This document shows positions 566 through 14,120 of a DNA stretch of 27,765 nt, one piece after another. Both the position numbers and the translations under genes were made by a program. Within the stretch, counting starts at the first letter, position 1; each line of letters opens with the position of its first letter. The notes below the pieces were generated by a model. It was not told the DNA's origin and made no database searches. It worked only from the letters and a program-made list of their open reading frames with translations. Source of the stretch: a virus; IMG/VR virus record IMGVR_UViG_3300025131_000319, positions 1 through 27,765 of that record; one strand, written 5' to 3'.

Positions 566-1321
566 ATGAACGAACTTCAGCCGTTGGATATCAATCAGTC
601 GCCCATCCCTCACTCCCAAGGCTTTTCTGGGAGGCTTTCGGATATGGGTTATGAACCTCCTGCCGATATGAAGATCGAACAATTCAGCCATGAGGTTGGG
701 TTGACGATGCATATGCAACGGTGGATCAATTGGGCTCTCGGAGATCTATTGGTATATGGTGAAGAGAGATGGCCTGAACGGTATAAAGACGCCGTGCTGC
801 TTACAGGAAAGTCTGAGCAGCATCTTTATAATGTCGCTTGGGTAGCCAGAGTATTCCCAATTGACCGCCGTAGGGGTGATCTCACTTGGTCCCATCATTT
901 GGAAGTCGCCGGATTGCCTCGAGAAGAGCAGGATATGTGGCTCGACAAGGCTTCCGAAAACCATTGGAGCAGGGCGAAACTCCGATCCGCTAGAGAAGGT
1001 GGCAAAGCTACGCATGGGGATGAAGATACGCCCCCCGGAATTGAGATTCCAGAGGGCTTCACGACTCCTATGCGTGAAGGAATCATGAAATTCATTGCCG
1101 CTTGTGAGATCCAGCGTCCTGAAAAGGAAAAGACCGTAGAATACGTTGCTGATTGGGGAATCGTCAGAGTCACGGTCAGTCCTTCGGCTCAGTCCATATC
1201 ATCCTCTCAAGAACATCTCCCTCAGGAGACTTCTTCAGAGCCCCAATCTCCTTCGCAAAGCCTAAGCATTCCTCATGCAGATCCTCCAGCCATGAACCAA
1301 TCATATGGATCGCATGAATAA
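566..1321 (+). CDS. Putative DNA-binding regulator (KorB/ParB-HTH-like), lone rightward gene
   Basis: This 251-residue protein starts at the ATG behind AAGGAG (555-560); in-frame codons upstream to 518 lack a ribosome site. Residues 53-69 contain a WALGDLLVYGEERW block. Residues ~80-97 read as a helix-turn-helix (GKSEQHLYNVAWVARVF). Residues 106-142 contain LTWSHHLEVAGL followed by a WLDKA/WSRAKLR block. I associate this order (WxLGDxLxYGE, HTH, LSWSHHxEVA, WSxxxLR) with phage and actinobacterial proteins of KorB/ParB-HTH type. The assignment is from memory of the pattern, not a search. The last ~48 residues are Ser/Pro/Gln-rich and are encoded opposite the gene at 1176-1595. It is the only rightward gene in the left block and lies beside a two-way promoter region, which suggests a regulatory role. 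Confidence 0.75.
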   Translation: MNELQPLDINQSPIPHSQGFSGRLSDMGYEPPADMKIEQFSHEVGLTMHMQRWINWALGDLLVYGEERWPERYKDAVLLTGKSEQHLYNVAWVARVFPIDRRRGDLTWSHHLEVAGLPREEQDMWLDKASENHWSRAKLRSAREGGKATHGDEDTPPGIEIPEGFTTPMREGIMKFIAACEIQRPEKEKTVEYVADWGIVRVTVSPSAQSISSSQEHLPQETSSEPQSPSQSLSIPHADPPAMNQSYGSHE

Positions 1322-2863: not shown

Positions 2864-3382
2864 CTATGAAGTAGCCTCGGCGGATTCGGAAACGACCGTC
2901 TCGGTAGACTCGGCCTCAGCAGTGGCCTGAACCTTGGCCAGCAAGTCAGCCTTCGACAGACTCGACAGGTCCTCATCGGTGGCCTGCTCATCGGCAGTGC
3001 CGAGATCAAAGCGACGGACTCCAACCAGTTCAGTGTTAGAGGCATCTTTCGAGGTCGGCTGGGGACGCTTGTCAACGCCACCAGAGGCGATCAACTGGTC
3101 ACGAAGGCCATTGATGACGGCCTTGAACTTCACTGGGGCTTTCTTCTTCAGGTTGTCTCGAGCCGTGAACACCTGCTCGAGCAGATCGGAAGCCTCCGAC
3201 ACCGTAAGTGCCGGATCAAGGCTCCGAACATCAACCTGAGTTTGGGTAAAGATAGCCCACGTCTGCTTCGACGAGGCTGGTGAATTGGAAACGCGACCTT
3301 CTTTAGCCACGGCCTCGTCCTCTTGAGAAGCGACCACATCCGACGTCTTTGCGCCGTTCGTGCTTTCGGTCTGCTTAGCCAC
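2864..3382 (-). CDS. Paralogue A of a two-member family with SAP/HeH-like tail (172 aa)
   Basis: Translation most likely starts at the GTG at 3380-3382, 7 bases after a GAGGAG site; no ATG fits. Residues 1-38 are Ser/Thr/acidic and probably disordered. Residues 40-110 form a conserved domain (KQTWAIFTQTQVDVR, LTVSEASDLL, KFKAVINGLR, GGVDKRPQP) shared with the protein at 7713-8558. Next come VRRFDLG (123-129) and a short helix-loop-helix, LSKADLLAKVQA (142-153), like the SAP/HeH/Rho-N family, then an acidic Ser/Glu tail. Such tails often bind nucleic acid, which is inference here. It is the last gene before the terminator at 2782-2835 and lies 4 bases after the stop of 3387-3704. Confidence 0.8.
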   Translation of the reverse strand: MAKQTESTNGAKTSDVVASQEDEAVAKEGRVSNSPASSKQTWAIFTQTQVDVRSLDPALTVSEASDLLEQVFTARDNLKKKAPVKFKAVINGLRDQLIASGGVDKRPQPTSKDASNTELVGVRRFDLGTADEQATDEDLSSLSKADLLAKVQATAEAESTETVVSESAEATS

Positions 3383-3386
3383 AATA

Positions 3387-3704
3387 CTACTCCTCGTAAA
3401 GAGTGTAAAAGAGATACTGCTTACAACGGTGTAACGAAGGATGACAGTCGAGGTACTGTGCATCAGACCACATCAACCATTCGATCCGACGACTATCCTC
3501 AACCCAGACCTTTGCGGCTTTCACGAGCCGTCCATGCAATCGACCTATGACCTTTTGGCCTGTCATGAAGGTCGGCGGAACTGTCGTGACTTTATTGCCA
3601 TCAAGATCTGTCAAAGCGAAACGACGTGTAGGGTTTGAAACATCAGGTTCTGTGTGTGCTCCCGGTTCGTTGCCCAATACGTTGAATCGTCTTATTTCTG
3701 TCAT
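3387..3704 (-). CDS. Hypothetical protein (105 aa)
   Basis: This leftward gene's ATG (3702-3704) shares one base with the upstream stop (TAATG) and has GGGGAG about 8 bases earlier. The protein has a small beta-rich look: an N-terminal MTEIRRFNVLGNEPG, a TRRFALTDLDGNKVTTVPP segment, then GRLVKAAKVWVEDSRRIEWL, a tryptophan-rich strand or helix. The 'LTDLDGNKV' phrase is common in small beta proteins and is not diagnostic. I do not recognise it. Its stop codon overlaps the ribosome site of the paralogue gene downstream, so their translation is likely linked. Confidence 0.65.
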   Translation of the reverse strand: MTEIRRFNVLGNEPGAHTEPDVSNPTRRFALTDLDGNKVTTVPPTFMTGQKVIGRLHGRLVKAAKVWVEDSRRIEWLMWSDAQYLDCHPSLHRCKQYLFYTLYEE

Positions 3705-4276
3705 TACAGATGCTCCCCAATGACATACTCATCATTGTCAATGGGCATAACTTCGTAAACGTGATTATGATGCCACCGATCATGGAACTCAGCATCGCCG
3801 ACGTAGACGATGGATTGAGTTTCTGTAGCCAACAGGATTGCCTTTGGCCGTGAAGACTCTGACTCCCCATCATCTTCAGCCAACTCCTCAGTAACCATTG
3901 TATCCAGCGTAGCCACCACCTCTGGCGAAGCCTCTGCTACAGCCTTCAATACAGCGGCTGTATTTTCAGGGCCATCAATTACAGCGGTGGTTTGTCGATG
4001 TATGACATACTTAGCGGCATAACACCGACGTTGCTGAGCCTCAGAGATAATCCCTCCGATTTGCGCTGTCATAGGTCGAGCAATTGGTGAACGACGTTGC
4101 ATCGTCTGCATGTTGGTCCCTTCCCTTAGATGACCAAATACATCACAAGGTGAATGAGGGCTATCCTCATCAACCACAGTCCTGATTCTCGGTAACTCAT
4201 AGGCTTTCCCTATCGATATAACGGCGGCCCGCTCCGCTTTAGAGGGCTTATCCTCCTCCTCCCTCCCCACCGCCAC
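3704..4276 (-). CDS. Hypothetical protein, start uncertain (up to 190 aa)
   Basis: The frame opens at GTG codons at 4274-4276 and 4268-4270. GGGAAGGG gives the second of these a 5-base spacing. A third choice is the ATG at 4109-4111, with AAGGGAAGGGA 5 bases upstream, which would give 135 aa. The shared part begins MQTMQRRSPIARPMTAQIGG. It has a helical middle (EAQQRRCYAAKYVIHRQ), an acidic stretch (ELAEDDGESESS), and a C-terminal beta-like domain with FHDRWHHNHVYEV. The HDRWHHNH cluster could bind a metal. It is unrecognised. If the shorter start is right, 4112-4326 would be free to hold the tiny ORF at 4126-4200. Confidence 0.6.
   Translation of the reverse strand: MAVGREEEDKPSKAERAAVISIGKAYELPRIRTVVDEDSPHSPCDVFGHLREGTNMQTMQRRSPIARPMTAQIGGIISEAQQRRCYAAKYVIHRQTTAVIDGPENTAAVLKAVAEASPEVVATLDTMVTEELAEDDGESESSRPKAILLATETQSIVYVGDAEFHDRWHHNHVYEVMPIDNDEYVIGEHL
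4126..4200 (-). CDS. Possible 24-aa membrane peptide, alternative to the longer reading
   Basis: In a frame different from 3704-4276, an ATG at 4198-4200 has AGGG 8 bases before it and reads MSYRESGLWLMRIALIHLVM before ending LVI. This is a short hydrophobic peptide. Its stop is followed by the AAGGGAAGGGA site of the internal ATG at 4111. This tight order mimics the mini-gene at 388-486. It conflicts with the long start of the overlapping gene, so only one arrangement is likely. Confidence 0.25.
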   Translation of the reverse strand: MSYRESGLWLMRIALIHLVMYLVI

Positions 4277-4299
4277 CCTTCCCGGTGGGGAGGAGGAGG
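4255..4299 (-). repeat. GC-rich inverted repeat between two leftward genes
   Basis: CCTCCCCACC (4262-4271) pairs with GGTGGGGAGG (4284-4293). A further 6 bp (4255-4260 with 4294-4299) extends the stem beyond a one-base bulge; the loop is 12 bases. It covers the GTG candidate starts of the downstream gene. It lacks a T-run, so a structure that occludes translation or stabilises RNA fits better than a terminator. Confidence 0.5.
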
Positions 4300-4326
4300 T
4301 TAATGCCTCTGGTTAATAAGCCCCCC

Positions 4327-7712: not shown

Positions 7713-8558
7713 TTACGCGGCGATTTCAATTCCGCCGTTGGTGATATACTCGATCAACTCAGCCTTGGTCATCTTGTCGACAGGCTTTACCTCGACTACC
7801 TCGTCTGCCGGGGCGTCTGCTTCTTCGGTGGCACCAAGGTCGAAGCGGCGAACCAACGGGGCCTCTTCAGTCTGAGCATCGGAAGCCTTCGGCTCAGGTC
7901 GTTTGTCCTCACCACCAGCCTCAATCAACACGGGTCGAACCTTCGTGTTGATCCACGTCTTAAACTGAATCTTGCCGAGCTTCTCCTTCTGAGCGAAAAT
8001 GTCCTGCAACAAGCCAGAGGCTTCCTCTACAGTCAGAGGACTCTTGAGAAAGCGGCAATCGATCTGAGTGATCGTGAAAATGGCCCAACTCTGCTTTTTT
8101 GTCATAGCCGAAGGCTTCTTTGCGGTGGCCTTATCAGAAGACTTCGCGGCTGCCTTGGTCTGCGTCTTGGTCGTCATCTTGCTATTCCCCTTGGCCGAAG
8201 GCCGTTTGGGTGTTTTGACAGTCTTTTTAGCGGCGACTGGCTTACCGGTCTTCAGTCCCTCACGTGGCATACCGTCGTTTACTACAGCGACGTGATCTTC
8301 AGCATCCCACTTTGTCGGCTCCCCTTTCAGAGCCCTCTTGATATTGAGGATATCATCCTCGACGGTCTCCATGAACTCTTTGATTTTGCTGACGTAGTCA
8401 CTTGAACGGCTTCCTCGATCTCGGCTTGCCTCACACAGGAGCCCATGCAGACGCTCCCGGTCCTTCTCGGCGAACTTCAATTGCTCGGTCCACAATCGGA
8501 CGTCGGATTTCGGCATCACAATCGGGGCAAGCTGGCTGGTCATGGTTCGGTTCGGCAT
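7713..8558 (-). CDS. Paralogue B, larger member with Lys/Ala-rich linker (281 aa)
   Basis: I chose the ATG at 8556-8558, 8 bases after AAGGAG; an ATG eight codons earlier lacks a site. Residues 15-85 form a charged helical domain absent from paralogue A. Residues 105-155 are rich in Lys, Ala and Thr like histone-H1 tails. Residues 155-223 repeat the paralogue A domain (KQSWAIFTITQIDCR, LTVEEASGLL, KTWINTKVRP, GGEDKRPEP). VRRFDLG (237-243) and a SAP/HeH-like MTKAELIEYITN (263-274) follow. The domain function is unknown, and DNA binding is an inference from the basic linker and the tail. An internal ATG at 8175-8177 has AAGGGG 9 bases upstream and would give a short form like paralogue A. It is the first leftward gene after the dyad array. 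Confidence 0.8.
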   Translation of the reverse strand: MPNRTMTSQLAPIVMPKSDVRLWTEQLKFAEKDRERLHGLLCEASRDRGSRSSDYVSKIKEFMETVEDDILNIKRALKGEPTKWDAEDHVAVVNDGMPREGLKTGKPVAAKKTVKTPKRPSAKGNSKMTTKTQTKAAAKSSDKATAKKPSAMTKKQSWAIFTITQIDCRFLKSPLTVEEASGLLQDIFAQKEKLGKIQFKTWINTKVRPVLIEAGGEDKRPEPKASDAQTEEAPLVRRFDLGATEEADAPADEVVEVKPVDKMTKAELIEYITNGGIEIAA

Positions 8559-8588
8559 CGGCAAATCTCCTTGTGGGGGCATGTTTTA

Positions 8589-8637
8589 GCTTTTTTCTTT
8601 TTGGGTTCAAAAGCGACAGCCCCAAAAAGAAAAAAGC
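8589..8637. repeat. Perfect 17-bp AU-rich hairpin beside a GC stem with T-run
   Basis: GCTTTTTTCTTTTTGGG (8589-8605) pairs perfectly with 8621-8637 across a 15-base loop. In the leftward RNA its 5' arm is the T-tract of a short GC stem (CCCC-GGAAGTT-GGGG), so the T-run can either end transcription or be locked in the long stem. It lies 31 bases upstream of 7713-8558. A role as leader switch or two-way terminator is likely. Confidence 0.55.
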
Positions 8638-8679
8638 CCCAACTTCCGGGGTGGAAGGGCAAAAGATCTGCGTGTGCCC

Positions 8680-9272
8680 GTAAGAGAGGAATCCAAATCG
8701 GCTCAGTCATACGCGCGTGTAAGAGAGAAATCGGCATGGATTCCAGTCATACGGGTGCCTAAGACTGGCAAGAGATTGGCCGGTCCAATGACACACACGT
8801 AAGAGAGCCAGCTTCAGTCTTACACGTCATGTAAGAGAGGACCAGCCAGTCTTACATGTGCGTATGACTAATCCAATCGGCAAGGCTTCAGTCATACGGG
8901 TGTCATTGGTAGGACGGTCCAAAGGCTACCTCTTACACTCGTGGCTTATACTGAATCCACGTAAGACTGAACAAAGCCAACCTTTTAAGCAGAGTCACAC
9001 ACATACACATGACTCCAGACTAGGGGGCTATCCAGTCATACACATGTGTCATTGTAGCTGGACTCCCTATACGCGGCCTTGATAAGGCTTGTGGGTGTTA
9101 GATGACCCTTGCCGAGAGGGATTTCTTCTATACGGGCGTATATAAGAGAGGATTGCTGCTATACGGGCGTGTGATACTATCGATAATCCTCATTATGGTG
9201 AGTATCACTCACTAAATGTGTGCGTAAGTGTCTGTAAGAGAGGAATTTACTTCTATACGCGCGTTTAAGAGG
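8680..9272. repeat. Array of ~16 imperfect 22-bp dyads in the gene-free control region
   Basis: Recurring arms AGTCATAC/AGTCTTAC on the left and GTAAGAGAG/GTAAGACT/GTGTCATTG on the right flank an ACG-CGT-like centre. Two-armed copies are at 8705-8727, 8745-8766, 8786-8807, 8816-8839, 8848-8869, 8890-8908, 8992-9015, 9034-9054, 9127-9150, 9159-9177 and 9252-9272. Single arms are at 8680-8688, 8929-8936, 8959-8969, 9067-9076 and 9234-9242. GTAAGAGAG occurs five times, always on the + strand. No convincing gene lies within. The array could be an operator cluster, replication iterons, or phage promoters. Confidence 0.75.
9173..9206. repeat. Nested dyad within the array
   Basis: GATACT (9173-9178) pairs with AGTATC (9201-9206), and inside it ATAAT (9183-9187) pairs with ATTAT (9192-9196) around CCTC. 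The sequence differs from the surrounding repeats and could be a separate operator or a small hairpin. Confidence 0.4.
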
Positions 9273-9502
9273 AATTTCCTCTCACGTGGACCCTTGTATG
9301 GGGGTGTGGGGGTAGGTGCCATTGGGGGTTGGCCTTTAAAAAACTATTTAATGATGCCCGTACTGAGCGCACCAAATTTTGGCCTCAATGTTTAAAAACA
9401 GTTCTCTTGCCGATAAGTGAGCCAAAGGGGGTAGAATCCGTCCTTTTCTTACTGGGCAAGAGAGTTACTCACTATAATTACCCATAATCTCGGGGTTAGT
9501 AA
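9273..9502. other. Gene-free AT-rich leader with inverted repeat and a TATAAT box
   Basis: After the array the region turns AT-rich (TTTAAAAAACTATTTAATG near 9345, TTTAAAAACAG near 9391). CTCTTGCC (9404-9411) is inverted at 9455-9462 (GGCAAGAG). A perfect TATAAT at 9473-9478 has only weak -35 candidates (TTACTG at 9449-9454, spacing 18). I see no coding frame. An AT-rich stretch beside an iteron-like array also suits a replication origin. Confidence 0.4.
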
Positions 9503-9530
9503 TTGACAGGACTGAAAAAGCCACTATATA
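9503..9530 (+). promoter_or_regulatory. Strong sigma70-type promoter for the rightward block
   Basis: A perfect TTGACA (9503-9508) is followed after 16 bases by TATATA (9525-9530); the overlapping TATATA at 9527-9532 gives spacing 18. It lies ~30 bases before the first rightward gene (9561) and is the best promoter in the window. It is likely to serve the small genes and perhaps the packaging and head genes, which show no other clear promoter. Confidence 0.7.
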
Positions 9531-9560
9531 TAGGAATGGGCATAAAAGAGGGGGTTTTGA

Positions 9561-9753: not shown

Positions 9754-10026
9754 GTGGCTTTAGCGAAGAGTGTTGAGGCATTGATAGAGGAGCCGTATGT
9801 GGATTTGATACCATCAATGCGTCAGATGGCGTTTGAGATTCCTGTGACATCGTGGCGGCTCAGTGTGGATTTGATGGGGATTTACAAGATGATGTTGACG
9901 GCACCCAACGATGGGGACTTCCGTGATACGGAGTATTTGTTCAGGGGTGCAGTGGTGCGGGAGGATATTGATTTGGGGTTGAGGGAATTGGTGGCGGAGA
10001 CGGATCAGGATGGTGACACGGGTTAG
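9754..10026 (+). CDS. Hypothetical protein with GTG start (90 aa)
   Basis: The frame begins with GTG at 9754-9756, one base after the previous stop; the ribosome site is weak (GGGATAG). The protein reads as helical with a hydrophobic middle (WRLSVDLMGIYKMMLTAP) and an acidic end (ELVAETDQDGDTG). The coding strand is unusually G-rich here compared with the structural genes. No function is recognised. Confidence 0.55.
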   Translation: MALAKSVEALIEEPYVDLIPSMRQMAFEIPVTSWRLSVDLMGIYKMMLTAPNDGDFRDTEYLFRGAVVREDIDLGLRELVAETDQDGDTG

Positions 10027-10057: not shown

Positions 10058-10306
10058 ATGGCTGTGAAGTGTCATTGCGGGGCGCAGACGAAGGTGTTGG
10101 AAACGAGGGATTCTGGGGGCAAGGTGTATCGTAGGCGGGAATGCACTGAGGGCCATCGTCACTCGACGTATGAGATATCAGAAGGGGAGTTGGAGAAGAT
10201 CACGGCGTTTCGCAAGTCTCTGCGGGAATTCACTCCTGCGCTGTTGCGGTTCAGGCGTGAGTCGCGGGATTTCGCTCAATACATCGCAACCATGCTGGAG
10301 GGATGA
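10058..10306 (+). CDS. NrdR-type zinc-ribbon protein without ATP-cone (82 aa)
   Basis: The N-terminus has C5-H-C7 and then YRRRECTEGHRHSTYE (residues 24-39). This matches the NrdR zinc-ribbon signature 'CPxCG ... RRRREC ... RFTTYE', with the last Cys pair altered to C29...H33. The rest is one helical segment (LEKITAFRKSLREF...). True NrdR is ~150 aa and has an ATP-cone domain that controls ribonucleotide reductase genes; this protein lacks that domain. I infer a small DNA- or RNA-binding protein, and regulation of nucleotide metabolism is only a possibility. Its stop overlaps the next start (ATGA). Confidence 0.7.
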   Translation: MAVKCHCGAQTKVLETRDSGGKVYRRRECTEGHRHSTYEISEGELEKITAFRKSLREFTPALLRFRRESRDFAQYIATMLEG

Positions 10307-11558: not shown

Positions 11559-11814
11559 GACTCCAATACACCTGATGTCACGAATAGCGGGTGAGTTTTT
11601 AGACCGCAACTTACATACGCCCGATGAATTGGTCATGGTCATTCCTTCGCATGTTGCTGAGGAAGCTGTTCAATCTTCGGGCGTTTGTCCTGTTACCATC
11701 CGAGGCATCGCTGTTATGCAACGATCTGATTGCCCACAAGGGTCTGTATACATCATCGAACGCGCCGTTTACGATACATCAGATTGGGATTTCTCCGATG
11801 ACGACATTGCGTAA
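11542..11814 (+). CDS. Hypothetical protein (90 aa)
   Basis: I take the ATG at 11542, because the longer frame from 11413 overlaps the zinc-finger gene without a ribosome site. The protein begins MPETPKTPIHLMSRIAGEFL and has a beta-like middle (VIPSHVAEEAV, CPVTIRGIAVM, SVYIIERAVY) and a strongly acidic end (SDWDFSDDDIA). It is not recognised. It lies just before the terminase genes and overlaps the small subunit by 17 bases, so cotranslation is likely. Confidence 0.55.
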   Translation: MPETPKTPIHLMSRIAGEFLDRNLHTPDELVMVIPSHVAEEAVQSSGVCPVTIRGIAVMQRSDCPQGSVYIIERAVYDTSDWDFSDDDIA

Positions 11815-12541
11815 GCGCCAAAGACACAAGAGACGAACTCTTGTGCAAAAGCGAGCCGATCAGACCCAGATCGCTCAGCTATATCTAAAGCAGAAAACGC
11901 AAAAAGAGATCTCCGAACTTATGGGTTGTTCATATCAGATGATCGCCCATGACCTGAAAGAGATCCGCGAAGAATGGCTGACGCAGGCTGCTGCTAACTT
12001 CGGCACCAGACAGGCTACTGAGCTTGCTCGCATTGATGCCCTCGAAGCCGAGTATTGGAAGGGATGGACTCGCTCTCAAGAAACAACAGAGACGATTACC
12101 GAAACTGAAGAGAAAGACGATGAGTTCGAAGGGCTTCAGCTAACTAAAAAACAACTTCAAAGGGTGAAGAGGGATGGCTCGGTTGCGTTCCTTCAGGGCA
12201 TACAATGGTGTGTCGATCAGAGATGTAAAATTCTCGGTCTACACGCTCCTAAGGAAGTGCGGGTGGATCAGCACACATCGCAAACACTTGAGCTTTCTGA
12301 AATGAGCACGGATCAGTTGCGGGAGATCGTCGAACGAAACTCTCGTACTGCCGTTGAGCCTGAGAAGGCCGAGATCGAGGAAGCCTCCTTTTCTGAACAA
12401 TTAGCTGAAGACGATGCGGCCTACGAGAAAGAGCATGATCGCGTCTTCGGTGCCTCTGAACGGTCGCCTCTACCTTCTGTGCTGCAACCGAATAAGTGGA
12501 CAAAGAAGGAAGGGGACAATTATGACAATGAAAACCCTTGA
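11798..12541 (+). CDS. terS: Terminase small subunit-like HTH protein (247 aa)
   Basis: I take the ATG at 11798, where a very basic N-terminus begins (MTTLRKRQRHKRRTLVQKRA); the longer frame from 11624 covers the neighbour and looks non-coding. Residues ~25-60 hold a helix-turn-helix (KTQKEISELMGCSYQMIAHD). A long charged helix follows (ARIDALEAEYWKGWTRSQE), then a Gln/Lys segment and an acidic tail. An N-terminal HTH, then 'LxRIDALExEYW', directly before the large terminase is the usual layout of phage small terminases that recognise the pac/cos site. The position is strong support; the sequence alone is moderate. It overlaps the large subunit by 20 bases. Confidence 0.7.
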   Translation: MTTLRKRQRHKRRTLVQKRADQTQIAQLYLKQKTQKEISELMGCSYQMIAHDLKEIREEWLTQAAANFGTRQATELARIDALEAEYWKGWTRSQETTETITETEEKDDEFEGLQLTKKQLQRVKRDGSVAFLQGIQWCVDQRCKILGLHAPKEVRVDQHTSQTLELSEMSTDQLREIVERNSRTAVEPEKAEIEEASFSEQLAEDDAAYEKEHDRVFGASERSPLPSVLQPNKWTKKEGDNYDNENP

Positions 12542-14120
12542 TGCTCGGGAACTGAAAGCTGCACAGGAACTGCTGGCCCGCAAAGAGGCCGCTGAGTCTT
12601 TGCTGGAATTTACCAAATACACGTTCCCTGAATTTGTCGTCGGACCCCACCATCGACTGATGTGTGAGCTACTGGAGTCGGTGGAAAGAGGCGAGAAACG
12701 ACGCGTCATGATCTTTATGCCGCCTCGTTACTCCAAGTCGGAAATCAACTCGAGGCGTTTTCCGGCTTTCTTTTTGGGCAGGAATCCAGATAAATTCGTG
12801 ATCTGTGCTTCATACAACCAAGACCTCGCAGATGACTTTGGACGCGATGTTAGGCAAATCGTTTCGTCCCCCGAATATCACCGTGTGTTCCCGGACGTTC
12901 GTCTGGACCCCGCTGTCTCGGCAATGGATCATTGGCGTCTGGAAGGAAGAAGAGGTCGATATATTGCCTCCGGCGTCGGAACTTCAATCACAGGCCGAGG
13001 AGCGCATCTCTTCCTTATCGACGACCCCTTCAAAGACCGAAGAGATGCAGACTCAGCCCACATGCGAGAACTCGTCTGGAACTGGTACAAAGCTGTTGCG
13101 TTTACCCGTCTACAACCCAAAGGCGCAATAATCTTGATCATGACTCGCTGGCATGACGATGATCTTGCAGGGCGACTCATCGAACAAGCTCAATTGGATG
13201 ATCGTATCCAGCCGTGGGAAATAATTTCTCTCCCAACAGAGGCTGAAGAAAATGATCCACTCGGAAGAAAGCCCGGAGAAGTTCTTTGGCCAGACTGGTA
13301 TTCAGCCGAAGAAGTCCAAGAGCAAAAAGCAGTCATGGGAGAACGAGAATGGGCGAGTCTCCACCAGCAGAAACCCATTCGAGATGAAGGCGATACTTTC
13401 CAGCTTGACTGGTTTCAGAGGTATGAAACACTACCTCCTCACGACACTCTCCGATTCTACGGAGCATCAGATTACGCAACAGACGATAGTTCAAAAGATT
13501 ACACTGTCCACGGCGTCTTCGCCATTGACCCTGACGCGAATATTTACGTGGTTGACTGGTATCGACGAAAAGCTAAGGCGCTGGATTGGATCGAAGCCTT
13601 AATTGATCTGATGATGGAGTGGAAGCCCTCAAAGTGGTTTGAGGAAAAAGGCCAGATCCTTAACATGGCTGATCCTCTTATCCGCAAGAGGATGAAGGAA
13701 CGGAGCGTATTCTGTTACCGTGAAGCCTTCCACATGTCCACCAAGAAAGCGGATCGTGCCGTTTCCATCGCCGGTAGAGCGCAGATGGAAATGATCTGGT
13801 TGCCGAAGCGTGCGCCTTGGGTTGGAGATCTCTTACACGAGCTAACACGTTTCCCTGCTGGAGCGAATGACGATCAGGTCGATGTATGTTCCCTCTTGGG
13901 CAGAGGGTTAGGAGATCTTCGTCCCGGACGCCGTAAGCACAAGATGCCCGAGGATGTGAAGCCTTCTGGAAGGTCTTTTAACGATCTGTTAAAGCGTCAC
14001 GAAAATAGGATGAGGGGAAGGGCTTCGTCTTCAGAGGCCCCTATTGTAGGAAGCCATCCAACCTTCACACCGGATGCTGAGTACATCAAGATGTTGCGAG
14101 ACTCTCAGTTGATTCTGTAA
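12522..14120 (+). CDS. terL: Terminase large subunit (532 aa)
   Basis: The start is the ATG at 12522, behind GGAAGGGGA at 5 bases. Residues 66-74 (MPPRYSKSE) are a Walker A-like P-loop. Residues 165-169 (LIDDP) are Walker B, and TRWHDDD (208-214) is a coupling motif. The C-terminal RNase H-like nuclease shows D317 (YGASDY), E374/E375 (WFEEKG) and D450-D454 (NDDQVD). The whole ATPase-nuclease arrangement is intact and the length is normal for TerL. It pumps DNA into the prohead through the portal at 15097-17196 and cuts the concatemer. The lack of an obvious Gly in the P-loop (PPRYSKS for PPRxGKS) is a known variation of this terminase type. Confidence 0.95.
   Translation: MTMKTLDARELKAAQELLARKEAAESLLEFTKYTFPEFVVGPHHRLMCELLESVERGEKRRVMIFMPPRYSKSEINSRRFPAFFLGRNPDKFVICASYNQDLADDFGRDVRQIVSSPEYHRVFPDVRLDPAVSAMDHWRLEGRRGRYIASGVGTSITGRGAHLFLIDDPFKDRRDADSAHMRELVWNWYKAVAFTRLQPKGAIILIMTRWHDDDLAGRLIEQAQLDDRIQPWEIISLPTEAEENDPLGRKPGEVLWPDWYSAEEVQEQKAVMGEREWASLHQQKPIRDEGDTFQLDWFQRYETLPPHDTLRFYGASDYATDDSSKDYTVHGVFAIDPDANIYVVDWYRRKAKALDWIEALIDLMMEWKPSKWFEEKGQILNMADPLIRKRMKERSVFCYREAFHMSTKKADRAVSIAGRAQMEMIWLPKRAPWVGDLLHELTRFPAGANDDQVDVCSLLGRGLGDLRPGRRKHKMPEDVKPSGRSFNDLLKRHENRMRGRASSSEAPIVGSHPTFTPDAEYIKMLRDSQLIL

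Follow-up and report, generated by a model that had tools for sequence, protein, structure and literature searches.

The window, meaning the whole stretch of DNA analysed here, is a virus record of 27,765 bases in which a plus-strand gene at 566-1321 is followed by a minus-strand block of small genes reaching to 8582. A 978-base intergenic region (8583-9560) separates this block from a plus-strand block holding a putative terminase small subunit (TerS), the terminase large subunit (TerL; phrog_38, E 3e-116), a gene of portal size and a capsid gene. The largest open reading frame wholly within the intergenic region is 74 aa, in agreement with the earlier sequence-only reading, which had seen about 600 bases here without a credible gene. 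The genes and surrounding features are as follows:

566-1321, plus strand: ParB/Noc-type helix-turn-helix protein, a weak candidate reader of the array; conserved in longer relatives, with a structure model
7713-8582, minus strand: left flanking gene, Lys-rich protein with the domain IF..T..D.R....LT..EAS.LL; a Lys-rich gene lies at the same place in relatives, with a clear homologue in G001
8583-9560, no strand: divergent intergenic region, a putative control region, with the small genes of the minus strand to its left and the plus-strand block to its right; from the ORF map, with a 9-mer pair excess of z ~29 over shuffles
8589-8637, no strand: long inverted repeat with an 18-bp stem, GCTTTTTTCTTTTTGGG...CCCCAAAAAGAAAAAAGC, in the interval between left gene and array
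9503-9532, plus strand: possible sigma-70-type promoter TTGACA-16/18-TATATA before the right block, by direct reading
10058-10306, plus strand: NrdR-type zinc-ribbon protein, a phage-specific candidate reader; tblastn match absent in the relatives tested
11624-12541, plus strand: putative TerS, a helix-turn-helix protein directly 5' of TerL
12414-14120, plus strand: TerL

The Lys-rich proteins sharing the domain IF..T..D.R....LT..EAS.LL form paralogous pairs, 7713-8582 and 2864-3463 in the window and L070:9182-9727 and L070:5139-5489 in G001, and the first gene left of the junction is Lys-rich in the relatives read. No paralogue of 566-1321 was seen in the window, although '566-1321 and paralogues' had been put forward as regulators; the paralogous pair is the Lys-rich one.

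The 593-base stretch 8680-9272 contains 118 8-mer pairs, compared with a mean of 5.5 and a maximum of 19 in 2000 dinucleotide shuffles. The corresponding 7-mer and 9-mer counts were 190 and 70, against shuffle means of 21.6 and 1.4. Repeat density per 600 bases was 110 in the array, 8 at the window median and ~21 at the best places elsewhere in the window. Lack of an excess over shuffled sequence had been named beforehand as the result that would speak against the motif, and the excess is very large. Palindromy alone, scored at a spacer of 6, was not in excess (10 versus 6.7 in shuffles, reached by 13 of 100 shuffles), and the signal therefore resides in the repeated arms. Unsupervised iteration of a position weight matrix on the array drifted to background.

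The words repeated exactly within 8680-9273 are CAGTCATAC (four copies), CAGTCTTAC (two), GTAAGAGAG (five), CTKCTATAC (three) and GTGTCATTG (three). These are half-sites of one imperfect dyad whose outward half is GTAWGAvwG; the typical dyad is 24 bp long and arranged 9-6-9, with a centre that is usually 6 bp and mostly alternates purine and pyrimidine. A scan of the window found the exact arms to be nearly restricted to the array. Half-sites scoring at least 7 bits numbered 17 inside the array, where the rest of the window would predict 0.9, but the matrix used was trained on the array itself and this comparison is circular, so that the dinucleotide-shuffle test is the unbiased measure of the excess. 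The sites are:

8680-8688, plus strand: single right arm GTAAGAGAG
8704-8727, plus strand: dyad CAGTCATAC-GCGCGT-GTAAGAGAG
8744-8767, plus strand: dyad CAGTCATAC-GGGTGC-CTAAGACTG
8786-8807, plus strand: dyad CAATGACAC-ACAC-GTAAGAGAG, one good and one divergent arm
8815-8839, plus strand: dyad CAGTCTTAC-ACGTCAT-GTAAGAGAG, spacer 7
8847-8870, plus strand: dyad CAGTCTTAC-ATGTGC-GTATGACTA
8889-8908, plus strand: left arm CAGTCATAC, then GTGTCATTG at short spacing
8961-8969, plus strand: single right arm GTAAGACTG
8992-9015, plus strand: degenerate dyad GAGTCACAC-ACATAC-ACATGACTC
9033-9054, plus strand: dyad CAGTCATAC-ACAT-GTGTCATTG
9125-9148, plus strand: dyad of the CTKCTATAC sub-family, CTTCTATAC-GGGCGT-ATATAAGAG
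9156-9179, plus strand: dyad CTGCTATAC-GGGCGT-GTGATACTA
9234-9242, plus strand: single right arm GTAAGAGAG
9250-9273, plus strand: dyad CTTCTATAC-GCGCGT-TTAAGAGGA

The recount gives four dyads in which both arms are good (8704, 8744, 8815 and 8847), about six in which one or both arms are degenerate (8786, 8992, 9033, 9125, 9156 and 9250, of which 8992 is degenerate on both sides) and four single arms (8680, 8889, 8961 and 9234). This is ~13-14 sites, in place of the ~16 previously listed as 11 two-armed and 5 one-armed. The further claim that one arm always lies on the plus strand holds for GTAAGAGAG (5 of 5 exact array copies) but not for its reversed near-copy CCTCTTAC at 8929-8936. The dense cluster of half-sites is real and well beyond chance.

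Arms belonging to the same dyad are no better matched than arms taken from different dyads, with complementarities of 4.89 and 4.81 of 9, respectively (p 0.48), and the description of the arms as mixing freely between copies is thereby upheld. The offset from left to right arm is concentrated at spacers 2-7, with the best at 6. Because the arms fit a common half-site consensus and not their own partner, the sequence favours protein half-sites over hairpins. Successive centres are 39, 40, 40, 31.5, 31.5, 42, 57, 87, 92, 31, 63 and 31 bp apart, the gaps of 57, 87 and 92 bp containing only weaker sites. The spacings group near 31, 40, 42 and 63 bp, most of them near whole helical turns. A local ±7 bp jitter null on the neighbouring centres (39-42, 31-31.5 and 63 bp) gave p 0.007 in a test picked post hoc, after the spacings had been seen, while a single fixed helical period over the merged centres was not significant (p 0.067, R(10.5) 0.19). 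Helical phasing of the sites is suggestive only.

The candidate rightward promoter at 9503-9532 lies ~230 bp right of the array. It is missing from both promoter scans, probably because its −10 lacks the final T. These two scans found no good promoter overlapping the array and none directed leftward, and one of them placed weak promoters within the array. Similar C-rich long hairpins, CCTCCTCCCCACC...GGTGGGGAGGAGG, are present at 4251-4300 in the window and at L070:5534-5576, 8996-9039 and 9935-9984 in G001.

A capsid search for relatives returned 29 loci, including contigs of 20-55 kb at 56-69% capsid identity. Searches of viral contigs with the terminase, portal and left gene found near-identical fragments or distant proteins only; together with those using 566-1321 and the motif, they ended in near-identical fragments stopping short of the array, distant terminases without a junction, or contig L023. 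Pairwise identity grouped the records into the clades window+G001, G004/G005/G008/G007/G009, G010/G012/G014 and G011/G013/G015. The longer records keep the gene order: 566-type gene, early block, Lys-rich gene, divergent junction, terS, terL. Models for the tyrosine integrase, the DnaB C-terminal domain and PolA were unmatched in G001, G004, G005, G008, G010, G012, G013 and G015 (records up to 55 kb). In two clade-mates, a stretch of coding sequence (L041:430-1000 and L042:960-1480) is full of short hairpins with TTCG or TTTG loops (CTCCTTCGGAG, CACCTTCGGTG).

The window motif was found in 0 of 22 related records, among them the relatives of 56-69% capsid identity that keep the divergent junction. 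Its one match in viral contigs (L023) is a chance match in coding sequence. In genome contigs the window dyad had 44 single matches and no cluster, which by our own estimate is about the chance number, and a host origin of the motif was rejected. In these scans the motif has no relative elsewhere. Absence of the motif from relatives that keep the flanking genes had been proposed as evidence against the array; the motif is indeed absent from these 22 records, yet repeats of other sequence stand at the same position. In every junction piece tested but one, 9-mer pairs exceeded shuffles with z 7-41, the exception being a 291-base left piece from G001 with no repeat excess over shuffles. What these junctions share is thus their place and not their sequence, and on these sequence comparisons the junction looks like a conserved control region with fast-changing letters.

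The repeats differ in kind from record to record. At the G001 junction, AACARCTGAWC sites occur in L033 at 45, 66 and 87 (plus) and at 113, 199, 221 and 252 (minus), with spacings of 21, 21, 26, 86, 22 and 31 bp; with up to 2 mismatches the word appears about once per kb elsewhere in G001, so it is enriched at the junction and not exclusive to it. The oriented 13-mer TAACGCGCAAGGA is present three times at the G007 junction and four times at that of G013, always pointing the same way with respect to the late block, with no copy elsewhere in G013 and, in G007, with a TTACCC-17-TATAAT sequence between copies. The 14-mer CTAACGCGCAAGGA matched 84 stretches when all viral contigs were scanned, mostly as single matches. 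Its tight clusters are in group members (L126, L163, L183, L192 and L193), and L152, a contig without marker genes, has a loose triple spread over 580 bp with a mismatch in two copies. Besides the repeat, the junctions of G007 and G013 have nothing notable in common, and the two phages come from separate clades, so the distribution of the repeat is not explained by descent alone. Long hairpins are present in G008, as are CTCCACGAAGGGAG repeats, which stand across the Lys-rich gene from its junction. The junction repeats of all these relatives may do one job.

Elsewhere in G001, ~800 bases at L070:5580-6350 consist of GGACTGTGCTATGC/CTGTGCCGTAC-type repeats (377 nine-mer pairs versus 8 in shuffles, z 85), upstream of the second Lys-rich paralogue and beside a hairpin with a 20-bp stem. 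The named phages MW202803, Mx9, ppBjS10J-1, BUCT555 and MW202489 (27-33% capsid identity) have repeat clusters that are weaker, coding, or G+C-rich and of low complexity, none of them array-like. Contigs L033 and L034 both begin inside the junction; a physical genome end was not adopted, because contigs of other relatives run through the junction and a long hairpin lies near the break.

The protein encoded at 566-1321 has matches in seven related records. Its alignment-based AlphaFold2 model, which replaced a poor single-sequence structure, is good for residues 21-146. These residues matched the DNA-binding domains of Spo0J-parS, Noc-NBS and ParB-parS with Z 10.9, 10.6 and 10.5 (VIA-align), several of the matched Spo0J/Noc/ParB structures having been solved with their palindromes, and KorB and SopB followed with Z 6.6 and 5.7. 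Foldseek E-values were weak alone (0.1), with a probability of up to 0.99, and the ParB CTPase domain was not seen in 566-1321. The model thus predicts a ParB/Noc-type domain, and the earlier suggestion of 566-1321 as a DNA-binding regulator gains support as regards DNA binding.

The helix-turn-helix of this protein is nearly constant among relatives whereas the arrays change. Between G013 and G015 its recognition helix hardly differs, nor does it between G007 and G008, although the junction repeats are unlike, and the window and G001 have a divergent recognition region in common (HLYN against TLRN) and the same helix with different junction motifs. A parS-like 16-mer with up to 2 mismatches occurs exactly once in 10 of 15 records and not in the window; the G001 copy has two mismatches and sits in the 566-type coding sequence. 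Since the helix is almost constant and most relatives have one parS-like site, 566-1321 is a weak candidate for the array reader; the 566-type protein probably reads parS where that site is present. Mimicry of parS by the window dyads was not supported. ParA (PF13614) had no match in 11 records, some of them fragmentary.

A near-perfect bacterial parS-like 16-mer, TGTTYCACGTGRAACA, with at most 1 mismatch, is found once per record in G004, G005, G007, G008, G010, G011, G012, G014 and G015, in or beside the junction/terminase region (for example L074:2485-2500, L073:3425-3440 and L041:2484-2499). This phage group accordingly combines parS-like sites and a ParB/Noc-type protein with no ParA detected. 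The Stenotrophomonas phage BUCT555, distantly related in its capsid, has two parS-like palindromes (L030:46-61 and L030:1542-1557, 1 and 2 mismatches).

The NrdR-type zinc-ribbon gene at 10058-10306 had no tblastn match in the relatives tested and is, on sequence, a candidate phage-private reader. TerS fits poorly as reader because clade-mates with similar TerS carry different repeats. A host protein is possible.

The explanation we prefer, with slightly less than even confidence, sees in the array a cis-acting region where protein binds at multiple sites, most likely an operator or enhancer for transcription of the two divergent blocks. The half-sites are repeated and confined to a junction between divergent blocks, and the junctions of relatives are rich in repeats of different sequence. 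From this pattern we infer that a protein binds, that it does so as a dimer and cooperatively, and that transcription is what it controls. The dimer, of a regulator encoded by phage or host, would bind each ~24-bp dyad (half-site ~GTAWGAvwG, 9-6-9), and several dimers, lying on about the same helix face at 3- and 4-turn distances, would cooperate. The bound array would set transcription of both blocks, and related phages would use the same control region with other repeats, its position kept and its sequence turned over. Protein-binding half-sites are supported by the arms of common consensus, the near-helical spacing and the confinement to the divergent junction. The multi-site operator for a dimeric protein suggested from the sequence therefore stands only as far as protein-type half-sites are concerned.

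The main rival is a replication origin, in which an initiator would bind the iteron-like dyads and open nearby DNA so that both blocks are replicated outward; we consider this unlikely. The GC-skew check proposed for a replication start did place the cumulative minimum at the junction (8251-8750, followed by a strong rise), but the skew switches where the coding strand changes, and the two are inseparable. Repeats in relatives are spaced 21-39 bp, as iterons are, and, with no PolA or DnaB match in 11 records, these phages may rely on a site in cis that recruits host machinery. Against this, spacing in the array varies, unlike that of typical iterons, no initiator gene was recognised in the window (the record is a fragment), and no AT-rich opening element stands out: the adjoining AT-rich stretch reported earlier proved unremarkable, with at most 67% AT per 60 bases compared with 72% elsewhere in the window. 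A nucleoprotein array read by the phage's own 566-1321 protein, like the sopC centromere of plasmid F, appears distinctly improbable. The modelled ParB/Noc domain (Z 10-11) would suit it, as would the divergent recognition region common to the window and G001, neither of which has a good parS-like site. However, the same pair has no motif in common, helices stay near-identical within G013/G015 and G007/G008 despite differing repeats, ParA is unmatched, and the single parS-like 16-mer of most relatives is a better match to such a domain.

An explanation of the array as structured RNA, as hairpin DNA or as neutral expansion of repeats in a long untranslated region is improbable, even though 8670-9290 folds with z −5.8/−4.9 as RNA and −6.7 as DNA and the junction of G008 is rich in hairpins (z −7.4 in one 200-nt piece). 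An arm is no more complementary to its own partner than to others, so co-varying stems are not seen; folding is ordinary at the G001, G007 and G013 junctions, and Rfam gave no family at gathering score, only three sub-threshold matches to unrelated families. Neutral expansion would agree with repeat content that differs between relatives, but inverted arms at preferred spacers are unexpected from random slippage. The earlier proposal of a packaging or recombination site survives in its packaging half alone, as a very unlikely reading. A site for a tyrosine integrase is disfavoured by the absence of any PF00589 match in the 11 records. A pac region read by TerS would accord with the position of the junction upstream of terS in relatives, with the variability of TerS (31-47% identity to that of the window) and with the start of L033 and L034 in the junction. 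On the other hand, the array and terS of the window are 2.3 kb apart, G007 and G013 have the same repeat with TerS only 37% identical, clade-mates at 69-83% TerS identity lack the repeat, and the contigs of G008, G010 and G012 span the junction.

Should the junction prove to be a conserved control region whose arrays are private in sequence, it would offer a natural series on how a regulator and many sites change together, or on the ways in which phages use DNA-binding proteins borrowed from the host. Because gene order is kept among relatives and the arrays differ, the question is directly testable, and a motif missing in relatives does not refute function at the junction. A more speculative proposal, which we regard as unlikely, is that each lineage of this uncultured podovirus-like clade has its own private multi-site code at one junction, which turns over more quickly than the genes on either side and is in some cases common to distant lineages (G007/G013). 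Possible roles of such a rapidly switching specificity locus would be homotypic regulation or exclusion when phages co-infect, or adaptation to a DNA-binding protein of the host.

Divergent phage genes are known to have clusters of operators or iterons between them. What we did not find described in the open-access literature searched is the variant seen here, with this number of sites, arms that mix freely and, most notably, a motif that turns over at a fixed junction within one phage group. The sopC centromere of plasmid F consists of 12 repeats of 43 bp. The array resembles it in having about a dozen dyads at ~4-turn spacing over ~500 bp in a phage that encodes a ParB-type protein, and differs in that ParA was not found, spacing is variable and the ParB-type helix does not track the array sequence. 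With iteron origins, such as the lambda O sites among phages and plasmids, the array has in common repeated sites at near-helical spacings close to a skew switch; unlike them, it has dyads of unequal arms, and an initiator or opening element was not recognised. The Cluster O mycobacteriophage repeat TGTTCGG-N3-CCGAACA, of unknown function, is also a short palindrome in many copies in one phage genome, but its 34 copies are dispersed with invariant arms, whereas those here are clustered at one junction with variable arms (PMC4351075). In phage phi11, three operators lie between divergent transcription units (PMC3991615). The array has 13-14 sites over ~590 bp compared with about three there, its motif is private, and no regulator gene was recognised next to it. 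As in such phage multi-operator regions, related dyads suited to a dimeric regulator, with binding here putative, are repeated in the intergenic region between divergent units.
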